Source: Flavobacterium tiangeerense (GTDB lineage Bacteria > Bacteroidota > Bacteroidia > Flavobacteriales > Flavobacteriaceae). From it: a stretch of DNA of 64,000 nt. Of this stretch, positions 36,352-47,806 are shown one piece after another. Both the position numbers and the translations under genes were made by a program. A model generated the notes under the pieces. The model made no database searches. It saw only the letters and a list, made by a program, of their open reading frames with translations, and was not told where the DNA came from. The stretch lies in the NCBI RefSeq assembly GCF_007830355.1, contig NZ_VLKO01000006.1, positions 186,001 to 250,000 of the forward strand, given 5' to 3'. How positions within the stretch are numbered: the first letter of the stretch is position 1; each line of letters starts with the position of its first letter.

Positions 36352-37755
36352 ATGATTCCTCAAGACTCCATTGTTGCCCTTGCCACTCCATCTGGCGCCG
36401 GAGCAATTGCTATAATACGAATTTCTGGTCAAGATGCTATTCCTATTGCTGATAGTGTTTTTAAATCGATAAAAAATAAAAATCTAGTCTCTCAAAAAAC
36501 CCACACCCTACATTTAGGTCATATTGTGGATGGTTCCAAAACGCTCGATGAAGTATTGGTTTCTGTTTTTAAAGGACCTAATTCCTATACCGGCGAAAAT
36601 ACCATAGAGATTTCTTGTCACGGATCAACGTATATTCAGCAGCAAATTATTCAATTATTGCTTCGAAAAGGATGCCGAATGGCCGATGCAGGTGAGTTTA
36701 CCCTACGCGCTTTCTTGAACGGAAAACTGGATTTATCACAAGCCGAAGCTGTAGCCGATTTGATTTCGTCAGACAATGAAGCCAGCCATCAAATTGCGAT
36801 GCAGCAAATGCGTGGTGGTTTTTCTAATGAAATTGCCAAATTGAGAGAAGAACTTTTAAACTTTGCTTCACTTATCGAACTCGAATTAGACTTTGCCGAA
36901 GAAGATGTAGAGTTTGCAGACAGAACCCAGTTTCACGAATTGTTGAATCGAATTGAATTTGTCCTAAAACGCTTGATTGATTCCTTTGCGGTGGGTAACG
37001 TAATTAAAAATGGAATTCCAGTTGCTATTGTGGGTGAACCAAACGTAGGAAAATCGACGCTTTTGAATGCTTTACTCAATGAAGAACGCGCCATTGTATC
37101 TCACATTGCAGGAACAACGCGTGACACCATCGAAGACGAATTAGTCATTGGCGGCATTGGTTTTAGATTTATTGACACAGCTGGTATTCGGGAAACCAAA
37201 GACTACGTCGAAAGCATTGGCATTCAAAAAACTTTTGAGAAAATAGAACAAGCGCAAGTGGTTTTGTATTTGAGCCCCCTAACCCCCAAAGGAGGAACTC
37301 TTGATGCTGAAAATATCAAAGAGGTTCAGATTGAATTTGAGAAAATTAAGAACCAATTTCCCTTGAAGCCCTTGATTATTATCGGAAATAAAAAAGATTT
37401 ATATTCCGATAATGAGATTGAGCATATCAAGAAAGAAATTCCAGAAATACTACTTTTGAGCGCCAAAAATAAAGAAGGGGTTGACGAACTCAAAAACCAA
37501 TTGCTTTCCTTTGTCAACACCGGTGCGTTGCGCAACAATGAAACGATTGTAACCAACACCCGTCATTATGATTCCTTATTAAAAGCTCTTGATGAGATTA
37601 GCAAAGTAAAATACGCTCTTGAAACCAACCTTTCTAGCGACTTGATGGCGCTTGACATCCGCGAAGCCTTATACCATTTTGGGATGATTACCGGTCAGGT
37701 AACTAATGATGAATTGTTAGGGAATATATTTGCGAATTTCTGTATCGGAAAGTAA
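36352..37755 (+). CDS. mnmE: tRNA uridine-5-carboxymethylaminomethyl(34) synthesis GTPase MnmE
   Basis: The 467-residue MnmE (TrmE) GTPase, which with MnmG modifies the wobble uridine of certain tRNAs. The N-terminal formyl-THF-binding domain begins MIPQDSIVALATPSGAGAIAIIRISG, the G domain has VGEPNVGKSTLLN, DTAGIRE and a NKKD motif, and the C-terminus ends in FCIGK with the catalytic Cys464. The 3' end is immediately followed by a 148-bp repeat and an accessory region. In Salmonella genomic island 1 the 3' end of this gene is an integration site, but no integrase or matching att repeat is visible here. Confidence 0.97.
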   Translation: MIPQDSIVALATPSGAGAIAIIRISGQDAIPIADSVFKSIKNKNLVSQKTHTLHLGHIVDGSKTLDEVLVSVFKGPNSYTGENTIEISCHGSTYIQQQIIQLLLRKGCRMADAGEFTLRAFLNGKLDLSQAEAVADLISSDNEASHQIAMQQMRGGFSNEIAKLREELLNFASLIELELDFAEEDVEFADRTQFHELLNRIEFVLKRLIDSFAVGNVIKNGIPVAIVGEPNVGKSTLLNALLNEERAIVSHIAGTTRDTIEDELVIGGIGFRFIDTAGIRETKDYVESIGIQKTFEKIEQAQVVLYLSPLTPKGGTLDAENIKEVQIEFEKIKNQFPLKPLIIIGNKKDLYSDNEIEHIKKEIPEILLLSAKNKEGVDELKNQLLSFVNTGALRNNETIVTNTRHYDSLLKALDEISKVKYALETNLSSDLMALDIREALYHFGMITGQVTNDELLGNIFANFCIGK

Positions 37756-37782
37756 TTTTATCAGCACTTTACTCCAAACATT

Positions 37783-37930
37783 CTGGCTGCCCATTCCTGC
37801 TATTCACTACAAGTCCGCGGGAATCGCCTTAAAAACATAAACCCAAAACGAGCTTCCGTTGGTCGCTGTTTTGGGTTTTGTTTTTATAGGGCTCCTACCC
37901 TTGCAGGCTTTTCGTTGCTATCAGGGGCAG
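37783..37930 (+). repeat. 148-bp dispersed non-coding repeat, copy 1
   Basis: This stretch matches 62860-63007 over all 148 bases with six substitutions and no gap (about 96%), in the same orientation. It holds a strong hairpin (AAACCCAAAAC at 37839-37849 with its complement at 37868-37878), and its ends CTGCCC and GGGCAG are complementary, so the whole element can fold. A weaker match extends left to about 37765. It is G+C-richer than its surroundings and has no coding potential. The hairpin plus T run might end mnmE transcription. Confidence 0.85.
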
Positions 37931-38270
37931 GGAGAGTTACGTTTCATTCATAAATTAAACTAGAGATGACGAGTAGCCTTAGCTGATGATATTGGGACTG
38001 TAGTCGCGTTCCTTTGTTCTGCTGACTCCAAGTGGATCAATGCACAACGAATAGAAGTTTCGGGTAGATTTGAATTAGCTGTTTTACATCTAAATCATAA
38101 TTAAATCCCAATGAAATAATTGCAATTAAAAAGAAGCTTGAAAATGAATACTGTTTATTGTATTCGCTCCACTTTACACATTTTCTTCTACTTTCTTCTA
38201 CTTTCTTTAATTTTTCTCTTAGTGATATCTCTACTTTTCTTACATTTACAGTGAAAGATAAAATCATTAA
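37931..38270 (+). other. Non-coding stretch upstream of hsdR
   Basis: No convincing gene. At 38181-38210 a 10-bp unit close to CTTTCTTCTA is repeated three times in tandem. TACATTTA at 38241-38248 resembles a weak -7 box 22 bp before the hsdR ATG. A minus-strand frame of 76 codons (38037-38267) lacks any sign of being real. Confidence 0.4.
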
Positions 38271-41200
38271 ATGAAATTCAACGAAGATTCAAGAGTAAAA
38301 ATCCCTACCATATTGCATTTGATGCGGTTAGGTTATGAATATTTGTCTTTAAATAGTCAAAAATGGGATCAGTCTACTAATATTTTTACCGATATTTTCA
38401 ATCAAAGTATTAAAAGACTTAATCCAGAAATGAATGATGGTGATGTCTCTAGGTTTTATGATGAAGTTGCGCTTAGTTTAGAGAATGAAGATTTAGGAAA
38501 AGTTTTCTTTGAAAAACTAACTAATAAGTCAGGTGTTCGATTAATCGATTTTGAGAATTTTTATAATAATACTTTCAATGTTGTTACTGAGTTAACTTGT
38601 AAAAAAGATGATGAAGAATTTCGACCAGATATAACACTTTTAATCAACGGGATGCCATTGGTTTTTATTGAAGTTAAAAAACCAAATAATCAAGATGGTA
38701 TTTTAGCAGAACATAAACGCATCCAATCACGTTTTCAAAATAAGAAATTCAGAAAGTTTGTCAATATTACGCAACTAATGGTTTTCTCCAATAATATGGA
38801 GTATGACAATAGTTCACCTACACCAATTGAAGGCGCTTTTTATGCAACAGCTTCTTATGATAAACCATCCTTTAATTATTTTAGAGAAGAAGAAAAATTC
38901 GATTTAAATACCATCCTTTCTGAAGTAAACGAATCAGAAGAAAATTTTGTTTTAAAACACACTAATTTAGTTGGCATTAAAAATTCACCTGAATTTATTA
39001 CTAATAAAAATCCTGATACACCTACAAATAGAATTTGTACTTCTTTATTTCAAATGGAACGTTTGCAATTTATGTTGCAGTACTCTATAGCTTATGTTAA
39101 AGGTTCTAAAGGTTTGCAAAAACACATCATGCGCTATCCGCAGCTTTTTGCTACCAAAGCTATTGAAGCCAAGCTAGAAGAAGGTGTAAAAAAAGGAATT
39201 ATCTGGCATACACAAGGAAGTGGGAAAACGGCTTTGACATTTTATAACATTAAGTATCTAACGGATTATTTTCAGAAAAAAAATGTAATACCAAAGTTTT
39301 ATTTTATTGTAGATAGATTAGATTTATTAATACAATCGGCTAAAGAATTTAAAAGTCGTGGATTAGTAGTTCATGAGATTAGTTCCAGAGAAGCTTTTGC
39401 AAAGGATATAAAATCTACAAGTGTTATTCATAATAATTCAGGTAAAGCTGAAATTACGGTCGTTAACATACAAAAATTTCAAGATGATCCAGACGTAGTT
39501 AGAAATACAGATTATCAATTAAACATTCAACGAGTATATTTCTTAGACGAAGTACACAGAAGTTACAATCCAAAAGGTAGTTTCTTAGCGAACCTTAACG
39601 AATCTGATCCCAATGCGATTAAGATTGGTTTAACAGGAACACCACTTTTAGGTAACGATTACAACTCGAAAGCTTTGTTTGGAGGTTATATTCATAAATA
39701 TTATTACAATTCATCTATTGCAGATGGATATACTTTGCGTTTAATTCGTGAAGAAATTGAAACCAATTATAAGCTTACTTTAAAACAAGCTTTAGAAGAA
39801 ATTGAAATTCTAAAAGGAAATGCCGACAAGAAAATTGTTTACTCACATCCTAAATTTGTAGAGCCAATGTTGGATTATATTGTTCAAGATTTTGAGAAGG
39901 CAAGAATTTCTATGAACGATAATTCTATTGGTGGTTTAGTGGTTTGTGATTCATCGGAACAAGCTAAAATGTTGTTTGAAATATTTGAATCAAAATACGC
40001 TCCTAAAGAAATGCTTCCTAGTGATCTTCTTATGGCTGCCGAACCGCAAAAATCTTATGGAGAGAAAAAGAGATTAGAAAGTAAAGCTACCACTGCAGCT
40101 ATAATCTTACATGATATAGGAACTAAACAAGATAGAAAAGATAAAGTAGAGGAATTTAAAGACGGAAATATTGACTTTTTGTTTGTTTACAACATGTTGC
40201 TTACAGGTTTTGATGCACCAAGATTAAAGAAATTATATATTGGCCGTGTAATTAAAGCACACAATTTATTGCAAACCTTAACTCGTGTAAATAGAACTTA
40301 CAAAGATTTTAGATACGGTTATGTGGTTGATTTTGCTGATATTCAAAAAGAATTTGATAAAACCAATCAGGATTATTTTAATGAGTTGCAATCGGAGTTA
40401 GGGGATGAAATGGAACATTATTCCAACATCTTCAAGTCGCAAGAGGAAATCAATGCGGAAATCAAGGAAATAAAAGACGTTTTGTTTCATTTTGATACCA
40501 TGAACGCTGAGATTTTCTCGCAACAAATTACCCAAATCAATGACCGAAGTGAAATCCTGAGAATCACGCGGGTGTTGAATAATGCCAAGAGTTTGTATAA
40601 TTTGATTCGACTTTCAGGAAATTACGAATTGTTGGAACAACTCGATTTTCATAAGCTGACAGTATTATCCCGTGATGCTAATAATCGTTTGGCATTGATT
40701 AATGCAAAAGAAGCTCTGGAAAGCAATATTGATACCTCAAACCTATTGAACATTGCTTTAGAAGATGTTATTTTTGCATTTGTAAAAGTGAAGGAAGAAG
40801 AAATGGTTTTGGCAGATCAACTCAAGAACATTCTTCAAAAAACCAGAGAAATGCTGGGCGGTAATTTCGATCAAAAAGCACCCGAATTTATTTCGTTGAA
40901 AGAGGAACTGGAACGCTTATTCAAAAAGAAAAATTTGAATGAAGTGACCAAAGAGGAAATGGAACGCAACATCAAGGAACTTGAAAAGATATACACGCAA
41001 GCCAAAGAATTGGAACGCAAAAACCAATTGCTGAGAGCCAAATATGATAACGACGAAAAATACGCCCGCTTGCACAAACGATTAATGGAAAAAGATCCCT
41101 TGACGGATAGCGAATCCAAACTTTTTGAAGCCTTAAACGGATTGAAAATAGCCGTTGATGCACAAATTATTCAAAATTCTAAAATGCTTGAGAACGAAAG

Positions 41201-41348
41201 TTTTGTGGAACGTATGGTAATGCGATTGGTGATTGACCAGTTCAAAAATAAACAGCATTTGGAATTGGATGCAACCACAACCAAGCGCATCAACGGAATG
41301 ATTGTCAAAGAATACATGAATGAGTTTTATGGACGAACAGCCTACTAA
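38271..41348 (+). CDS. hsdR: Type I restriction enzyme R subunit (endonuclease/translocase)
   Basis: A 1025-residue HsdR. The PD-(D/E)xK nuclease is near the N-terminus (Asp120, then Glu134 and Lys136 in FIEVKK). The SF2 helicase has Walker A HTQGSGKT (313-320), the DEVH box in FLDEVHRS, TGTPL, and the motif LLTGFDAPRL. With HsdM and HsdS it forms the complex that translocates DNA and cuts unmodified DNA far from its target. Length is normal. The codon and base use in the last third looks different from the first part. The next gene starts 2 bp after the stop. Confidence 0.96.
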   Translation: MKFNEDSRVKIPTILHLMRLGYEYLSLNSQKWDQSTNIFTDIFNQSIKRLNPEMNDGDVSRFYDEVALSLENEDLGKVFFEKLTNKSGVRLIDFENFYNNTFNVVTELTCKKDDEEFRPDITLLINGMPLVFIEVKKPNNQDGILAEHKRIQSRFQNKKFRKFVNITQLMVFSNNMEYDNSSPTPIEGAFYATASYDKPSFNYFREEEKFDLNTILSEVNESEENFVLKHTNLVGIKNSPEFITNKNPDTPTNRICTSLFQMERLQFMLQYSIAYVKGSKGLQKHIMRYPQLFATKAIEAKLEEGVKKGIIWHTQGSGKTALTFYNIKYLTDYFQKKNVIPKFYFIVDRLDLLIQSAKEFKSRGLVVHEISSREAFAKDIKSTSVIHNNSGKAEITVVNIQKFQDDPDVVRNTDYQLNIQRVYFLDEVHRSYNPKGSFLANLNESDPNAIKIGLTGTPLLGNDYNSKALFGGYIHKYYYNSSIADGYTLRLIREEIETNYKLTLKQALEEIEILKGNADKKIVYSHPKFVEPMLDYIVQDFEKARISMNDNSIGGLVVCDSSEQAKMLFEIFESKYAPKEMLPSDLLMAAEPQKSYGEKKRLESKATTAAIILHDIGTKQDRKDKVEEFKDGNIDFLFVYNMLLTGFDAPRLKKLYIGRVIKAHNLLQTLTRVNRTYKDFRYGYVVDFADIQKEFDKTNQDYFNELQSELGDEMEHYSNIFKSQEEINAEIKEIKDVLFHFDTMNAEIFSQQITQINDRSEILRITRVLNNAKSLYNLIRLSGNYELLEQLDFHKLTVLSRDANNRLALINAKEALESNIDTSNLLNIALEDVIFAFVKVKEEEMVLADQLKNILQKTREMLGGNFDQKAPEFISLKEELERLFKKKNLNEVTKEEMERNIKELEKIYTQAKELERKNQLLRAKYDNDEKYARLHKRLMEKDPLTDSESKLFEALNGLKIAVDAQIIQNSKMLENESFVERMVMRLVIDQFKNKQHLELDATTTKRINGMIVKEYMNEFYGRTAY

Positions 41349-41349
41349 T

Positions 41350-42192
41350 ATGAAACAGCAAGAAGCCATTCAATTATTTGAAGAAAAAAAAGTAAGAACC
41401 CTTTGGAATCAAGACGAGGAAAAATGGTATTTTTCTATTGTTGATACCGTGAGTGTACTAACTGATAGTCCTAATCCACGAAAGTATTGGAGTGTACTAA
41501 AAACAAGATTAAAAAAAGAAGGAAGTCAGTTGACTACAAATTGTAGTCAACTGAAAATGCAGTCAGCTGATGGAAAATATTATAAAACCGATGTTGCTGA
41601 CACCGAACAACTTTTCAGGTTAATTCAGTCGATACCTTCGCCTAAAGCGGAACCTTTTAAAGTTTGGTTGGCGCAAATAGCTGCAGAACGTTTAGACGAA
41701 ATGCAAGATCCTGAATTGACTATTGACAGAGCATTGGAACAATATATGAGTTTGGGTTATTCGGAAAATTGGATTAACCAACGCTTAAAAAGTATTGAAA
41801 TCCGAAAAGAATTAACGGATGAATGGAAAAGTAGAGGATTGAAAGAAGGGCTACAGTTTGCAACACTTACTGATATTATTTCTAAAGCCTGGTCGGGGAA
41901 AACAACTAAAGAATATAAAATGCTCAAAGGCTTGAAAAAGGAAAACCTGAGAGATAATATGACCAACACCGAATTGATCTTAAATATGTTGGCAGAAGCT
42001 TCGACCAAAGACATTTCGAAAGCGACCAATCCTGAAACCTTTGAAGGTAATAAGGAAGTAGCCCAACAAGGCGGTAATGTTGCCAAAGTAGCCATGAAAG
42101 AATTAGAATCCAAAACAGGCAAAAAAGTAGTGACTGCATTGAATGCAAAAGACAGTTTAAAACAAATCGAAGACAAAAAGAAGAAAAGATAA
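41350..42192 (+). CDS. BRO-N / DinD-like protein inside the restriction operon
   Basis: A 280-residue protein from the ATG at 41350. The N-terminal 110 residues resemble a BRO-N (phage antirepressor-like) DNA-binding domain (KVRTLWNQDEEKWYFSIVDTVSVLTDSPNPRKYWSVLKTRLKK). The C-terminal part has GLKKENLRDNMTNTEL, close to the matching region of E. coli DinD, an SOS-induced protein that disturbs RecA filaments. It lies between hsdR and hsdM, 2 bp after one and directly abutting the other, so it is surely co-transcribed. Its role here is unknown; modulation of restriction or response to DNA damage is inference. An upstream ATG at 41320 would overlap hsdR by 29 bases. Confidence 0.85.
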   Translation: MKQQEAIQLFEEKKVRTLWNQDEEKWYFSIVDTVSVLTDSPNPRKYWSVLKTRLKKEGSQLTTNCSQLKMQSADGKYYKTDVADTEQLFRLIQSIPSPKAEPFKVWLAQIAAERLDEMQDPELTIDRALEQYMSLGYSENWINQRLKSIEIRKELTDEWKSRGLKEGLQFATLTDIISKAWSGKTTKEYKMLKGLKKENLRDNMTNTELILNMLAEASTKDISKATNPETFEGNKEVAQQGGNVAKVAMKELESKTGKKVVTALNAKDSLKQIEDKKKKR

Positions 42193-43818
42193 ATGACCAC
42201 TACAATACAATTTGAAAAGCAAACCAAAAACCTCATCGACGATTTAAAAAGCGTTTGTGCCAATTACGGTTTGGGAAATGACGGAAACGAATTCAAGATT
42301 ATCACCCAAGTATTTTTATATAAATTTCTGAACGACAAATTTGTTCATGAAGTAAAACAACTCGACGAAAAAATAGCCACAGCCGACAATTGGGAAGCGG
42401 TTCTTAGAGAATACAATGACAACGACTATGAAATGCTGATGATGCAAATGAGCGAAAGTACCGCCCGCCTGCAACCCAAACATTTTATTTCCAGTTTGTT
42501 TGAAAGACAAAACGAAGCCAACTTCTCGGATATATTTGACAATACCTTACTGGATATTGCAAAAGAAAACAGTGATTTATTCTCAGTATTGACAGAAGGC
42601 GGCGAGAAAATTGTCCTGTTCGAAAACATCAGTAAATATGTTACAGACAAGCGTGATGATTTTTGTAAAGCCATTATCAACAAACTGATTAATTTTAGTT
42701 TTGAGAATATTTTTCACGAAAAGTTTGATTTTTATGCTACCATTTTCGAATATTTAATCAGTGATTATAATACGAATAGTGGTGGGAAATACGCCGAATA
42801 TTTTACACCGCATGCCGTAGCCAAAATCATGGCACGTTGTTTAGTAGATGGCGAAGTAAGCAATGTAACGTGTTACGATCCAAGTGCGGGATCTGGAACC
42901 TTGTTGATGAATTTAGCACACCAGATTGGTGAAACAAAATGCACCGTATATTCTCAGGATATTTCGCAAAAGTCCTCGAACCTACTGCGACTGAATTTAA
43001 TCCTGAACGATTTGGTACACTCAATACCGAATATTGTAAAAGGAAACACGATTCTAGAACCGTATCACAAAGACAAAAACGGACGCCTGCAACAGTTTGA
43101 TTACATTGTGAGTAATCCACCGTTTAAATTGGATTTCTCGGATTATGTGGCAGATTTGGACAGCAAGGAAAACCACGAACGCTTTTTTGCAGGAATGCCT
43201 AATATTCCCAAAGCTAAGAAAGACAGCATGGCTATTTATCCTTTGTTTGTGCAACACATTATGTATTCGCTTACCGCAAAAGGGAAAGCGGCTATTGTTG
43301 TACCCACAGGATTTATAACGGCACAAAGCGGAATTGAACGTAAAATACGTGAGCAAATGGTGGAGCGTAAAATGTTACGTGGTGTTGTAAGTATGCCAAG
43401 TAATATTTTTGCTACTACAGGAACCAATGTTTCTATTTTGTTTTTAGATAAAGAAAACACTAAAGGCGATATTGTTTTGATGGATGCTTCTAAACTAGGA
43501 ACTACGGTAAAAGAAGGTAAAAATCAAAAAACGTTATTATCACCCGAAGAAGAAGATTATATTATTGATACATTTAATAAGCACGAAGCTAAGGAAGATT
43601 TTTCAGTAGTAGTTTCTTATGACGATATTAAAGCCAAAAACTACAGTTTGAGTGCTGGGCAATATTTTGAAGTAAAAATTGAATATACTGATATTACGGC
43701 AAAGGAATTTGAAGATAAAATGAAAACCTTTGAAACTAATTTAAGTGAACTTTTTAAGGAAAGTAAGACCTTGGAAATGGAAATTCAGAATAATTTGAAA
43801 GGGTTAAAACATGCTTAA
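42193..43818 (+). CDS. hsdM: Type I restriction modification M subunit (N6-adenine methyltransferase)
   Basis: A 541-residue HsdM. The SAM-binding motif I is DPSAGSGTLL (229-238) and the catalytic motif IV is NPPF (308-311), typical of gamma-class N6-adenine methyltransferases. The N-terminal helical domain (about 1-170) matches the HsdM_N family. It starts immediately after the DinD-like gene and overlaps hsdS by 8 bp. It methylates the target chosen by HsdS and protects host DNA. Confidence 0.96.
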   Translation: MTTTIQFEKQTKNLIDDLKSVCANYGLGNDGNEFKIITQVFLYKFLNDKFVHEVKQLDEKIATADNWEAVLREYNDNDYEMLMMQMSESTARLQPKHFISSLFERQNEANFSDIFDNTLLDIAKENSDLFSVLTEGGEKIVLFENISKYVTDKRDDFCKAIINKLINFSFENIFHEKFDFYATIFEYLISDYNTNSGGKYAEYFTPHAVAKIMARCLVDGEVSNVTCYDPSAGSGTLLMNLAHQIGETKCTVYSQDISQKSSNLLRLNLILNDLVHSIPNIVKGNTILEPYHKDKNGRLQQFDYIVSNPPFKLDFSDYVADLDSKENHERFFAGMPNIPKAKKDSMAIYPLFVQHIMYSLTAKGKAAIVVPTGFITAQSGIERKIREQMVERKMLRGVVSMPSNIFATTGTNVSILFLDKENTKGDIVLMDASKLGTTVKEGKNQKTLLSPEEEDYIIDTFNKHEAKEDFSVVVSYDDIKAKNYSLSAGQYFEVKIEYTDITAKEFEDKMKTFETNLSELFKESKTLEMEIQNNLKGLKHA

Positions 43819-45058
43819 AGTTATAACTATAAATAATGTTGTTCAATATTCTAAGAAAAGAATAAACTCAGAAAAAGTAACTTTAGAAAATTTTATTTCT
43901 ACAGATAATATTCTTCAAAATAAACTTGGTATAACTCAAGCTTCAAATTTACCTCCAAATGGTCAAGCTATGCCTTTATATGAGCAAGAAGATATTCTAA
44001 TTGCAAATATCCGACCTTATTTAAAGAAAATTTGGTTTGCAAATAAAAGTGGAGGTTGTTCATCGGATGTATTAGTATTGGAGGCAAAATCAGGTTATTT
44101 TCCAAAGTATGTATATTATAATTTGTTCAAAGATGATTTTTTTGACCATGTCATGAAGGGGTCTAAAGGAACAAAAATGCCACGTGGTGATAAAAATCAA
44201 ATTCTAGATTTTTTAATACCTGATTTTGAATTTTCAATTCAACAAAAAATAGCCAAAGTCCTTTCTGATCTAGATGCCAAAATCGAGTTGAACAACAAAA
44301 TCAATGCAGAGTTAGAAGCGATGGCAAAAACGCTTTATGATTATTGGTTTGTACAGTTTGATTTTCCAGATGCTAATGGTAAACCATATAAAACTTCTGG
44401 TGGTAAGATGGTTTGGAATGCAGAGTTGAAAAGAGAGATTCCTGAAGGTTGGGAAAGTGGTGTTTTGAGCGACATTGCAAATATTACTATGGGGCAATCT
44501 CCTCCTGGTGAAAGTTATAATGAGGAAGGTGATGGAATGATATTTTACCAAGGTTGTACAGATTTTGGTAATAGATATCCAACGATCAGAAAATTTACAA
44601 CTTCACCAACGAGATTTGCAAAGCAAGCTGATATTTTATTAAGTGTTAGAGCTCCTGTTGGAACTTTAAATATTTCAAAAGAAGATTGTTGCATTGGTCG
44701 TGGATTAGCCTGTATGAATAGTAAGAATAATGCTATTACCTATTTGTTCGGTGTAATGGTCAATCTAAAACAAACTTTTGATAGAAGAAATGCTAGTGGA
44801 ACGACTTTCGGTTCAATTACCAAAGATGATTTGTTTTCTTTACCAGTTATAATTCCAAATGAAAAAACAGTTCGAGCATTCCAAAATTTAGTATTTCCAT
44901 CTTTTGAAAAACAAAACAAAATTGAATTAGAAAATATAGAACTCGCTTCGCTTCGTGATTGGTTGTTGCCAATGTTGATGAATGGTCAGGTTAGTGTGGG
45001 TAATGTTGCTGAAGAGTTGGGAATGGTTGCGGAGGAAAGTGCACGTTATGGAAAATAA
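43811..45058 (+). CDS. hsdS: Type I restriction specificity subunit
   Basis: A 415-residue HsdS with two target-recognition domains. The first runs from the start to about residue 150; the central conserved spacer helix is DLDAKIELNNKINAELEAMAKTLYDYWFVQFDFP; the second begins near IPEGWESGVLSDIANITMGQSPPG; the C-terminal spacer is KIELENIELASLRDWLLPMLMNG. The two domains each recognise half of a bipartite sequence. The 3' end has a decayed second copy at about 45361-45425 (see the pseudogene entry). The target sequence cannot be read from this alone. Confidence 0.95.
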   Translation: MLKVITINNVVQYSKKRINSEKVTLENFISTDNILQNKLGITQASNLPPNGQAMPLYEQEDILIANIRPYLKKIWFANKSGGCSSDVLVLEAKSGYFPKYVYYNLFKDDFFDHVMKGSKGTKMPRGDKNQILDFLIPDFEFSIQQKIAKVLSDLDAKIELNNKINAELEAMAKTLYDYWFVQFDFPDANGKPYKTSGGKMVWNAELKREIPEGWESGVLSDIANITMGQSPPGESYNEEGDGMIFYQGCTDFGNRYPTIRKFTTSPTRFAKQADILLSVRAPVGTLNISKEDCCIGRGLACMNSKNNAITYLFGVMVNLKQTFDRRNASGTTFGSITKDDLFSLPVIIPNEKTVRAFQNLVFPSFEKQNKIELENIELASLRDWLLPMLMNGQVSVGNVAEELGMVAEESARYGK

Positions 45059-45344
45059 AAGTACACATCCTGAGATCACACTGAAACTGCAATCAGGAGG
45101 AATGATTGAATTTGAAAAAACGGGTATTCTACCTAATTATTTGGTATTCAATTCCCGAGAACTGCTAAGAACATGGCGGTTAAAACTAAAAGAAGATACT
45201 CAAAATGGAGTTTTAAAAGTGAATGGGCAAGTTGCTTTTTATTACTTTTTTGATGGTTTGGGTTGTAAAATTCAATCTTTAAAGGATGGTACAATAACTG
45301 AAGAATGGGAGATTGAAGAAATATTGATGGAGTTGAGAGATTAA
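45048..45344 (+). CDS. Small protein of unknown function downstream of hsdS
   Basis: A 98-residue soluble protein starting at an ATG that overlaps the hsdS end by 11 bp, a coupling that suggests it belongs to the operon. It begins MENKSTHPEITLKLQSGGM and has a mixed alpha/beta pattern with a hydrophobic core strand (QVAFYYFFDGLGC). I do not recognise a family. Its 3' side is followed by the decayed hsdS-tail repeat, so it may have entered as a short cassette. An in-frame start at 44982 would overlap hsdS much more and is less likely. Confidence 0.65.
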   Translation: MENKSTHPEITLKLQSGGMIEFEKTGILPNYLVFNSRELLRTWRLKLKEDTQNGVLKVNGQVAFYYFFDGLGCKIQSLKDGTITEEWEIEEILMELRD

Positions 45345-45360
45345 TTATCGTATAGGTTTG

Positions 45361-45425
45361 GTAATATTAAGGTAAGTGTTGGTGAGGTTTAGAGAGAGTT
45401 GAGAATGGTTGCGGAGAGTAGAGAA
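45361..45425 (+). pseudogene. Decayed second copy of the hsdS 3' end
   Basis: This stretch resembles the last 60-70 bases of hsdS. The best block, 45396-45416, matches 45014-45034 at 20 of 21 bases. It contains stops in every relevant frame and cannot be translated. It forms a direct repeat that encloses the 98-residue gene. Confidence 0.6.
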
Positions 45426-45456
45426 AATTATAATAAATAACAAATAATAAGTAAAC

Positions 45457-45960
45457 ATGAAAAAATTAATAACAATTATGCTCATCGGTTTTAGTTTTTG
45501 TTCTTTTGGACAAGAAATTAAGGAAAAAAAACAAAACAAAACAGAAATTGAAACGCTACTAAAAAATGGTATTAAACCAGAACTAGCATTTTTTTGGGAA
45601 ACAAAAGATACGCTTATCGTAGCACGCACAAATTTCAGGGAAACAATTCAGTTTGATTTAATAAATAAAAAATGTATCATTCGAAATATGTTTAGTGAAC
45701 AAGAAATTCAACTTACAAAAGATTTTAAACTCAACGACAGAAATACTCTTGATTCTCAACGTGATTTTGAGTATAATTTCGATATTGTAGGGAATGTTTT
45801 TATCGTTGCAGAAATGTATCAATACAAAATTTACTTTGATAAGAATAAACAAAATATACTAAAAATTGAAAACATAAATGATAAACATGTGTTCATTCCC
45901 AAAGAATATGAATATTACATGAGCCCTGTAGCACCTATTAGCTCAGGACCAAATGATTAA
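45457..45960 (+). CDS. Secreted protein of unknown function
   Basis: A 167-residue protein with a clear signal peptide (hydrophobic core, cleavage near SFGQ, residue 19). The mature part is hydrophilic and rich in Lys, Asn, Asp and Glu, with beta-type segments (NVFIVAEMYQYKIYFDKNKQNILKI). It has no recognised motif. It lies between the restriction operon and the HipA remnant and appears to be an orphan in the accessory region. Confidence 0.65.
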   Translation: MKKLITIMLIGFSFCSFGQEIKEKKQNKTEIETLLKNGIKPELAFFWETKDTLIVARTNFRETIQFDLINKKCIIRNMFSEQEIQLTKDFKLNDRNTLDSQRDFEYNFDIVGNVFIVAEMYQYKIYFDKNKQNILKIENINDKHVFIPKEYEYYMSPVAPISSGPND

Positions 45961-46245
45961 GTTGGTAATTATTTAGGATTGATTGTTTTAAAATGAGTTC
46001 AATTAGGCTTAACGAACCAAGTTTTTTGAAAAATACAATGAATTAAAATAAATACTACTCCATAAAAGTATTATTAGCAAAAGCACCTAAATCGGATCTG
46101 GGTGATTGGCTTAATAGGATGGTCTTGTATTTGGGGTGACTTGCTTCGCTTGTTCGCTATAACTTGGCTGGCAAATTCGAATACAGCTTAATTAAGTTCA
46201 AAACTTAATTTAGATTCTGAATAATATGCAGTAAAAAATCAACTT

Positions 46246-46269
46246 AATCACCGCGTTTTGGCGGTGATT
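46246..46269 (-). terminator. Hairpin at the end of the HipA remnant
   Basis: AATCACCGC (46246-46254) pairs with GCGGTGATT (46261-46269) around a 6-base loop. Minus-strand T runs lie about 8 bases on. It overlaps the stop codon of the HipA remnant. Confidence 0.5.
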
Positions 46270-46612
46270 ACCAAAACATCCCCACCCTACTTTCCAATAA
46301 CTCCAAATACCTCTCTTTCAAATCATCTGAAAGAAAAGAAATTTCAAGTAGCTCCTTCCATTTAGGAGTTGCTTTTTTCATTTGTTCGAGAATACTTGCT
46401 ATCGTTTTTTCGTTGAGCTGTAATATTTCCTTTCCATAGTAATCTATAAAATCAGTTGCTTTTAAATTACTTTTTTTCCCCTTTAAGGTCAGTGCAATTT
46501 CCTTTTCTGGCTTTTTAATCGCTATGGTAGAATTTAGAAAGTCGTAAATTGGTGCCAGTGTTGTTTTTCCATTTTTGGTAATTAGAGAGAAATCTTCTAT
46601 AAGAAATATTAA
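46268..46612 (-). pseudogene. C-terminal remnant of a HipA-like toxin kinase
   Basis: On the minus strand an open frame with no start codon gives about 115 residues that match the C-terminal part of HipA kinases, including the stretch DFSLITKNGKTTLAPIYDFLNST and an end region with FIDYYGKEILQL. A stop precedes it at 46615-46613. HipA phosphorylates a tRNA synthetase and is neutralised by HipB; here most of the toxin and all of hipB are missing, so it is a dead fragment. Confidence 0.7.
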
Positions 46613-46882
46613 TTATTATAAGGGTAATAAATTAAAGTTGAAAGTCTATATATGTTAGTACACAATTATGGCAACAACTGCAACTCACAACATAAAAGCC
46701 TCTGAGATACATTCTAAAATAGGAACATAAGAAGAGATAAAACTGATATTAAAAAAGAGGTCTTCCTAAAAGGAAAAGCCTCTTTCTAAAGTTATATTTT
46801 GAAGAATTCAATTCGAACCATCACTGTTAGCTACAACATAAATAGCTGTAATATTTCGGAATCAGCTTTCTCTACTTATCAA
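46613..46882. other. Non-coding stretch between HipA remnant and GH16 gene
   Basis: No gene is seen. It contains the terminator of the GH16 gene (46755-46786) and a short open frame of 20 codons (about 46668) that I cannot relate to anything. Confidence 0.35.
46755..46786 (-). terminator. Intrinsic terminator of the glycan-locus GH16 gene
   Basis: AAAGAGG (46755-46761) pairs with CCTCTTT (46780-46786) with further inner pairing. On the minus strand it ends in a T run and lies about 97 bp past the GH16 stop. Confidence 0.65.
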
Positions 46883-47806
46883 TTAGATTGGTCTTTTGTA
46901 AACCGTTACATCATCTACCCACATCATTACTGATGAAAATAAGTTGATTTTATTCGGGTTGATAAAATTAGCGTCGTTAGATCCTACATTCATATTGAAA
47001 ATAATAGAATGGGTTCCAAAATTATTGAAATTTAGATTCGCCGCGCTACTGTTCGTATAAGTTGCAACAGTTGCATTGTCAACCTTTATGGTTACTGTTA
47101 CCACATTGTTTTTCATTCTCCAGAAGGATTCATATAAATGCCATCCGTTGTTTCCGTTGAGATTAAAAGTACTCGGATAACTTCTTTCGGCAGCATTACC
47201 TAGTAAGTTTGTTCCAGCAGTAGTTCCGTAAAAAATATTTGAAGTATAACGGCTTGCATTAGGTGCAAAAGAGTAGCCTTCGAGAATATCAATTTCTCCT
47301 TTGGTTGGCCATCCATTTCCTTGCACGGTCCAAAAAGCTGGCCAGGCACCATAAGTATCAGAGAAAGATTTGTATGTTCCGCCATCCATCGCTACTAATT
47401 TAATATTAGCAGAGAGCATATATTCTGTATTGTTCTCTGGTTTGTATTGGTATTTAGAAGAAATGAAACCAGATTGATATTTCAAACTACTTACTTTGGT
47501 TGTTTTGATTTCTAGACATTGTTTTCCATCTCTTAATTGTGTAGTAGGTACTGAACTATTATAGTCACAATATTTGGAGTTATAATCTGTTCGTTGTTCT
47601 TTAGTCCATTGTGCCAAATTTGAACCTACATTAAATGTATCTTCAAATTGTTTTACCCAAGGGGCAGCGGCTATTTTACTTGTACTTTCAGAGGTATTAA
47701 CGCTTGCCAATTTTTCTTCTTTCAATTCAGAGGGTGTATTGTCTGAGCAAGATGTAAGTACTAAAACAGATGACAATACTGCTGATAACAAATTTAATTT
47801 TTTCAT
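46883..47806 (-). CDS. GH16 family surface lipoprotein endo-beta-glycosidase
   Basis: A 307-residue secreted lipoprotein (lipobox LVLTSC, Cys20). The GH16 catalytic signature ExDxxE is EIDILE (Glu171 nucleophile, Asp173, Glu176 acid/base). GH16 enzymes cut internal beta-1,3 or beta-1,4 linkages in laminarin, mixed-linkage glucans, agars or carrageenans; the exact target cannot be fixed. It ends the glycan-locus transcript with GH10 49 bp upstream and has a terminator. Confidence 0.9.
   Translation of the reverse strand: MKKLNLLSAVLSSVLVLTSCSDNTPSELKEEKLASVNTSESTSKIAAAPWVKQFEDTFNVGSNLAQWTKEQRTDYNSKYCDYNSSVPTTQLRDGKQCLEIKTTKVSSLKYQSGFISSKYQYKPENNTEYMLSANIKLVAMDGGTYKSFSDTYGAWPAFWTVQGNGWPTKGEIDILEGYSFAPNASRYTSNIFYGTTAGTNLLGNAAERSYPSTFNLNGNNGWHLYESFWRMKNNVVTVTIKVDNATVATYTNSSAANLNFNNFGTHSIIFNMNVGSNDANFINPNKINLFSSVMMWVDDVTVYKRPI

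Follow-up and report, generated by a model that had tools for sequence, protein, structure and literature searches.

The window, i.e. the whole 64-kb stretch of DNA that was analysed, contains a type I restriction-modification operon, in which hsdR, hsdM and hsdS occur together and were all matched by both Pfam and PADLOC. The genes follow each other in the order hsdR, Bro-N gene, hsdM and hsdS, and the whole operon lies 3' of mnmE. The features of the region are as follows:

38271 to 41348, plus strand: hsdR, type I restriction subunit (Pfam HSDR_N, SWI2_SNF2 and ResIII; PADLOC REase_I)
41320 to 42192, plus strand: Bro-N gene, embedded between hsdR and hsdM (Pfam Bro-N; PADLOC PDC-S13, E 1e-138)
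42193 to 43818, plus strand: hsdM, type I methyltransferase (Pfam N6_Mtase; PADLOC MTase_I)
43811 to 45058, plus strand: hsdS, specificity subunit (Pfam Methylase_S; PADLOC Specificity_I), starting within the end of hsdM with an overlap of 8 nt
44939 to 45058, plus strand: tail 1, the C-terminal conserved region of the present hsdS, from the ELASLRDW codons to the stop
45048 to 45344, plus strand: gene98, a gene of 98 residues, overlapping the hsdS stop (45058) by 11 bp
45336 to 45440, plus strand: tail 2, remnant of an hsdS tail, with its clear part at 45363-45440, an internal TAG and first codons that are the end of gene98
45457 to 45960, plus strand: gene of 167 residues, directly 3' of the remnant and 16 bp past its stop

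The gene of 167 residues matched no Pfam family and shows by eye a signal-peptide-like N-terminal stretch. Among 100 relatives searched it was found in one, which was its own genome.

The first-pass annotation had described a decayed second copy of the hsdS tail with a gene of 98 residues enclosed between the two copies, based on a match of 20 of 21 bases between 45014-45034 and 45396-45416. This match was confirmed, and it is the sole such 21-mer pair at a spacing of 100-599 bp in the window. The enclosed gene and the second tail were borne out as well, while the assigned feature start at 44982 is merely the first ATG of an open frame and the real gene, gene98, lies at 45048-45344. A local alignment of 44941-45060 with 45341-45460 reached a score of 48, while 5000 dinucleotide-shuffled versions of the second stretch gave 35 at best. 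Furthermore, a profile built on 12 hsdS tails of other genomes, with the window excluded, matched 45336-45440 with an E value of 1.3e-4 (26 sequences, six frames). The translation of this stretch reads RD*LSYRFGNIKVSVGEV*RELRMVAESRENYNK*, and judged by its sequence it represents the C-terminus of an HsdS, interrupted by a stop and apparently in decay. The further similarity claimed around the repeat is present, but modest, comprising about 45-84 aligned bases depending on the partner. This short length and the internal stop could be taken as signs of a chance similarity between two unrelated stretches, which is nevertheless extremely improbable, since it is contradicted by the shuffles, the profile search, the single 20/21 pair and the reversed sequence, for which no profile match of at least 14 bits was obtained in 465 kb.

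The first-pass annotation had also connected the repeat with a change of specificity. This link found no support, since the target-recognition regions do not include the repeat and gene98 is all that the two tails enclose. The open reading frames from hsdM to the remnant are hsdS and gene98, and no recombinase gene is encoded between the two tails, so that the recombinase gene in the hsdS region that marks a tvr-type locus is missing at this locus. A search with the integrase of G030 (genomes and loci are given by G and L numbers) yielded no match in 38000-47000, and the minus strand of the same region contains neither a central hsdS segment nor a tail, as would be expected for an invertible locus. 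Loci that look like invertible specificity loci do occur among the relatives: L045 (G031), L046 (G030), L062 (G570) and L110 (G995) comprise a second hsdS piece and, between the pieces, a 330-residue gene of the phage integrase family, and these integrase genes show a mutual identity of 91-93%.

The remnant was compared with 41 tails, 33 of them taken as hsdS tails and 8 of them lone tails. The best scores were determined for lone tails of G065 (69/84 bases) and G955 (48/54), while the tail of the window's own hsdS took only rank 7 (40/45). Since the own tail is only the seventh nearest, the remnant is probably no recent copy of it, although the order of its relatives is uncertain for a tail as short and decayed as this one. 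A local duplication of the own hsdS tail at the insertion of gene98, followed by decay, is therefore very unlikely in the window. Likewise, the own hsdS tail took ranks 17, 8, 5 and 23 when the lone tails in G065 and G030 were compared in this way. The exception is G431, in which the lone tail is nearest to the own hsdS tail (111/125) and both comprise a common internal insertion. Together with a lone hsdM tail in G132, which matches the end of its own hsdM in 48 of 50 bases, this case fits a local duplication better than the displacement of a foreign tail, and for these two a duplication is likely. The insertion in both hsdS tails of G431 (L097) is in frame and reads QAQDDK; we take it to be perhaps a dispersed repeat lodged in coding sequence.

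Within the genus, clear relatives of gene98 are present in seven genomes, and in six of the seven the gene lies beside hsdS (window, G066, G958, G363, G358 and G570). The place at which it overlaps the hsdS stop is identical in three of them (window, G066 and G958), while in G363 a 124-residue ORF separates the two genes. In G358, gene98 lies 56 bp from an hsdS of a different kind, and in G570 beside an hsdS piece on the opposite strand. In G226, it was found 3' of a PLD-like gene, and a second, partial copy (residues 63-98, 50% identity) lies about 4 kb from the full one (L004, 1501-1608). At the level of the genus, 3 of 249 genomes searched contained a relative, compared to 4 of 395 for the order and 5 of 296 for the phylum, whereby these sets overlap and the own genome is counted in each; G958 entered via the tail search. 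No NCBIfam, PADLOC or above-cut-off Pfam family was found for gene98, nor any match in plasmid and phage records. An assignment to DUF6896 was rejected at 13.9 bits compared to the Pfam cut-off of 27 (E 0.061), and no paper with the word DUF6896 was found. The predicted fold is all-beta, with a mean pLDDT of 85.2 for the best of five models and of 68.5 to 45.1 for the other four; its comparison with the PDB gave 425 matches at E values up to 10, none reaching 0.001. Altogether, gene98 is read as an accessory gene of type I systems that is linked to hsdS.

Among the five gene98 loci of the window's hsdS family, a tail 3' of gene98 is present in the window only and in none of L107, L040, L062 and L063. 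Relatives with the small gene and without the repeat, together with an insignificant similarity, had been named beforehand as evidence against a second tail; the first half of this holds, whereas the similarity is significant by shuffles and profile. The four relatives suggest that the tail is part of the recipient locus rather than of a fixed cassette of gene plus tail. The earlier proposal of a cassette insertion at the hsdS end is retained in part: an exchange or insertion is the best reading, while a fixed cassette disagrees with these four loci. The idea that gene98 arrived together with a 3' tail and was inserted by recombination between tails, for which integron cassettes offer a comparison, does draw on the stack in G065, comprising hsdS, gene, tail, gene, tail and ATPase, and on a stack of YhcG and RhuM genes in G997, each of which is also found as a single insert with a tail elsewhere (G132 and G030). 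For the window it is nonetheless unlikely, considering the four loci, the lack of an encoded recombinase between the tails and the silent sites of the tail core. These differ by 0.494 compared to 0.458 for hsdM (351 pairs, 27 loci), and since they are as variable as those of hsdM, a conserved DNA site is not indicated. A fixed attachment or recombinase site at the tail is thus unlikely, and a DNA core conserved beyond the need of the protein, as it would mark site-specific insertion at a 3' end, was not observed.

In the stretches matched, HsdR and Bro-N of G129 are 99% and HsdM is 95% identical to those of the window, but gene98 is missing, the hsdS frame extends by about 200 residues, and the DNA similarity ends within the tail at 45033. 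In G958, gene98 is present, the DNA similarity ends at its stop (45342), and no tail follows. Thus, operons that are almost alike up to hsdM differ 3' of the hsdS tail. Extended hsdS frames with an extra C-terminal part past the tail were observed in L043 (G129) and L049 (G005), comprising 639 and 588 residues.

In the genus, the tail profile, here with 16 rows of which two are lone tails, matched in 46 of 398 genomes. Besides the window, seven clear lone hsdS tails were found in five genomes, namely two each in G065 and G030 and one each in G431, G955 and G196, while one weak lone tail is common to G215 and G965. Not counted were L113 and L102 (contig edges), L115 (a 384-aa frame of another hsdS type) and the weak single matches L103, L104, L114 and L116; L100 and L101, whose 3' genes are identical, were set aside as weak. 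Every clear lone tail is followed by a gene on the same strand, which starts at or shortly past the end of the tail and sometimes within it. In G065, one of these genes encodes an ATPase that is 58% identical over 632 aa to the ATPase directly 3' of hsdS in G308, and in G030 one encodes an ATPase that is 30% identical over 794 aa to the one 3' of hsdS in G225. In G955, the lone tail is followed by the same kind of ATPase, with a type ISP gene and Thoeris-like genes upstream. In these three genomes, the gene after the lone tail is therefore of the ATPase kind that lies directly 3' of an intact hsdS elsewhere. Since the cargo 3' of hsdS in G308 (an AAA_21 ATPase, an HNH protein and McrBC genes) comprises defence genes, defence modules sit 3' of such tails.

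Traced by eye, the similarity extends upstream to about the codons ENQELASLRDW in five of the clear lone tails, while it begins later for the tail of the window and one tail of G065. No lone central hsdS segment turned up (0 of 34 matches in 248 genomes, 0 of 36 in a survey of 45 loci), compared to four lone tails among 34 tail matches at the same cut-off, of which two are themselves rows of the profile; this comparison is rough, as one query sequence was searched in 248 genomes and a profile in 398. In the 45-locus survey, 10 of 44 tail matches were lone and none occurred in reversed sequence, but these shares are not frequencies, because 20 of the loci had been fetched for their tail matches, lone ones included. 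The 'lone' hsdR matches of L043 and L048 in this survey result from fetched stretches that start within hsdR, and an N-terminal hsdM match in L040 reflects a frameshifted hsdM; the HsdR_mid profile comprised three sequences only.

A loss of a second hsdS copy had been considered as well. According to this explanation, two complete hsdS genes once enclosed gene98, and of the second only the final 100 bp or so escaped the deletion, which are indeed all that is left of any such copy. The remnant is in frame to an hsdS-type stop, and a second, partial hsdS on the same strand exists in G030 and G031. Random deletions should also leave longer pieces, whereas all lone remnants are short tails. Moreover, tails of hsdM are copied while the whole hsdM stays, and the loss of a second hsdM would be the less simple account, so that a deletion appears improbable.

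Among these copied hsdM tails, the two of G997 were observed in a control with hsdM ends. In this genome (L111, 725-2874), the order is hsdM, YhcG nuclease gene, lone hsdM tail, RhuM gene, lone hsdM tail and hsdS; every start codon sits in the preceding tail, and the two lone tails are alike in 36 of 37 bases. G132 comprises a YhcG gene with an hsdM tail and G030 a RhuM gene with an hsdM tail. At the hsdM/hsdS junction of the window's family, all four inserted genes, from three loci, are thus followed by a copy of the last 35-50 bp of hsdM that contains the next start codon, and a copy of the upstream gene's 3' end between insert and next gene is common to these four inserts and the window. 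Without an insert, hsdS starts within hsdM in 24 of 25 loci, of which 21 show an overlap of 8 nt and three of 4 nt, while one locus was not resolved. An overlap of hsdM and hsdS with translational coupling is described for EcoKI in the available part of the respective paper (PMC3510504). For the hsdR/hsdM junction, no hsdR end adjoining hsdM was found in any of the eight loci with a gap of more than 60 bp; the best alignments of an hsdR end before hsdM (window, L043) lie inside the Bro-N gene and were rejected with a score of 27 compared to 50 and 90 for the hsdM copies. L148 and L164, from another type I family, contain a gene between hsdM and hsdS with adjoining or overlapping ends and show no tail copy. 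Hence, the rule is not general, and it applies to some families only or is one of several solutions.

The stretch 45363-45440 is best explained as the 3' end of an earlier hsdS that was displaced. The arrangement as a whole is probably a scar, left by a gene exchange or an insertion where two genes are tightly joined, and a recombination step would have joined the new gene to the old tail. The present hsdS, together with the overlapping gene98, would have come to lie ahead of an older hsdS tail, which remained immediately ahead of the next gene and would now be decaying. We infer the reason from the gene joints: where the end of a gene carries or touches the next start signal, an insertion would break one of the two unless a copy of the end is kept, and with a kept copy both the upstream gene and the downstream start would stay whole, so that such insertions would survive best. 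This would explain why inserts at these places precede a tail copy. The lone tail may accordingly be required for the translation of the next gene, as a constraint by coupling. Two origins of the copy are conceivable. For the window, an exchange with a foreign hsdS and the gene attached to it is favoured, in which the resident tail stays behind; for G431 and G132, a duplication in the course of the insertion is favoured. A point against the displacement is that the pre-exchange state of the window's locus was not seen in any genome.

In a wider sense, a leftover hsdS tail looks like a fossil of gene gain in defence clusters. Tentatively, and with less confidence than for the scar itself, the 3' ends of hsdM and hsdS might act as portable joints, by which units of gene plus tail are stacked through recombination between tails and without a dedicated integrase. 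If true, growth of the operon would resemble that of an integron, with stretches of coding sequence in the role of the sites. Since joints are rarely visible in fast-changing defence islands, copied gene ends would record where and in what order genes came. A testable constraint is suggested, namely that an insertion between tightly joined genes persists if it leaves the joint behind as a copy, and the scars draw attention to type I accessory genes worth testing, gene98 among them.

Elements that insert at the 3' ends of genes, such as tRNA genes and mnmE, leave the old 3' end at the far side. The window shows the same order, with a new 3' end joined to the gene and the old one past the insert. 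It differs in that neither an integrase nor a DNA-conserved site was seen and the insert is one small gene.

The nearest known arrangements, as far as the available parts of the sources describe them, are the pneumococcal tvr locus and defence genes between hsdS and hsdR. The tvr locus (PMC6265443) likewise comprises, in a type I operon, hsdS pieces with direct repeats on their flanks, but according to the part available a recombinase moves target-recognition parts via circles by excision and reintegration, whereas in the window the repeat is the hsdS 3' end, an accessory gene is enclosed and no recombinase gene lies between the tails. In an E. coli island (PMC12255303), DarTG2 lies between hsdS and hsdR, so that extra defence genes occur 3' of hsdS there as well, and the authors call this site a potential recombination hotspot; the available part of the paper does not mention copies of the hsdS end, while in the window's genus such copies mark the joints. 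Recombinase-associated invertible hsdS loci, as described for Streptococcus pneumoniae in the available part of PMC4948785 and observed here in G030, G031, G570 and G995, share second hsdS pieces with the window, but these are long, partly inverted and accompanied by an integrase gene, which the window does not have there. In the titles and abstract openings among the literature matches listed, copied hsdS or hsdM ends behind inserted genes were not found.

The region 3' of mnmE (window 36352-38271; L147-L166) differs among the relatives and contains type I genes, integrase-like genes or others, so that it is likely an insertion hotspot. HsdM and HsdR matches occur together in 4 of 20 stretches 3' of mnmE, which were hand-picked out of 236 genomes with a match, and integrase-like genes were recognised by eye in several of them (checked for G241). 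A repetition of the mnmE 3' end as a downstream attachment site was rejected, since no exact 14-mer of 37691-37775 recurs later in the window. On the minus strand at 46271-46612, a truncated gene shows a HipA_C-like fragment (E 2.3e-6; 27.8 bits compared to the Pfam cut-off of 30.5), which shares 78-81% DNA identity with the mnmE loci of G036, G005 and G029 and in G029 lies directly 3' of mnmE. Within hsdS, the central conserved segment (window 44270-44455, 27 loci) showed silent differences of 0.366, a lower value than determined for hsdM and the tail core, and this pattern is as if it resulted from frequent exchange among loci.
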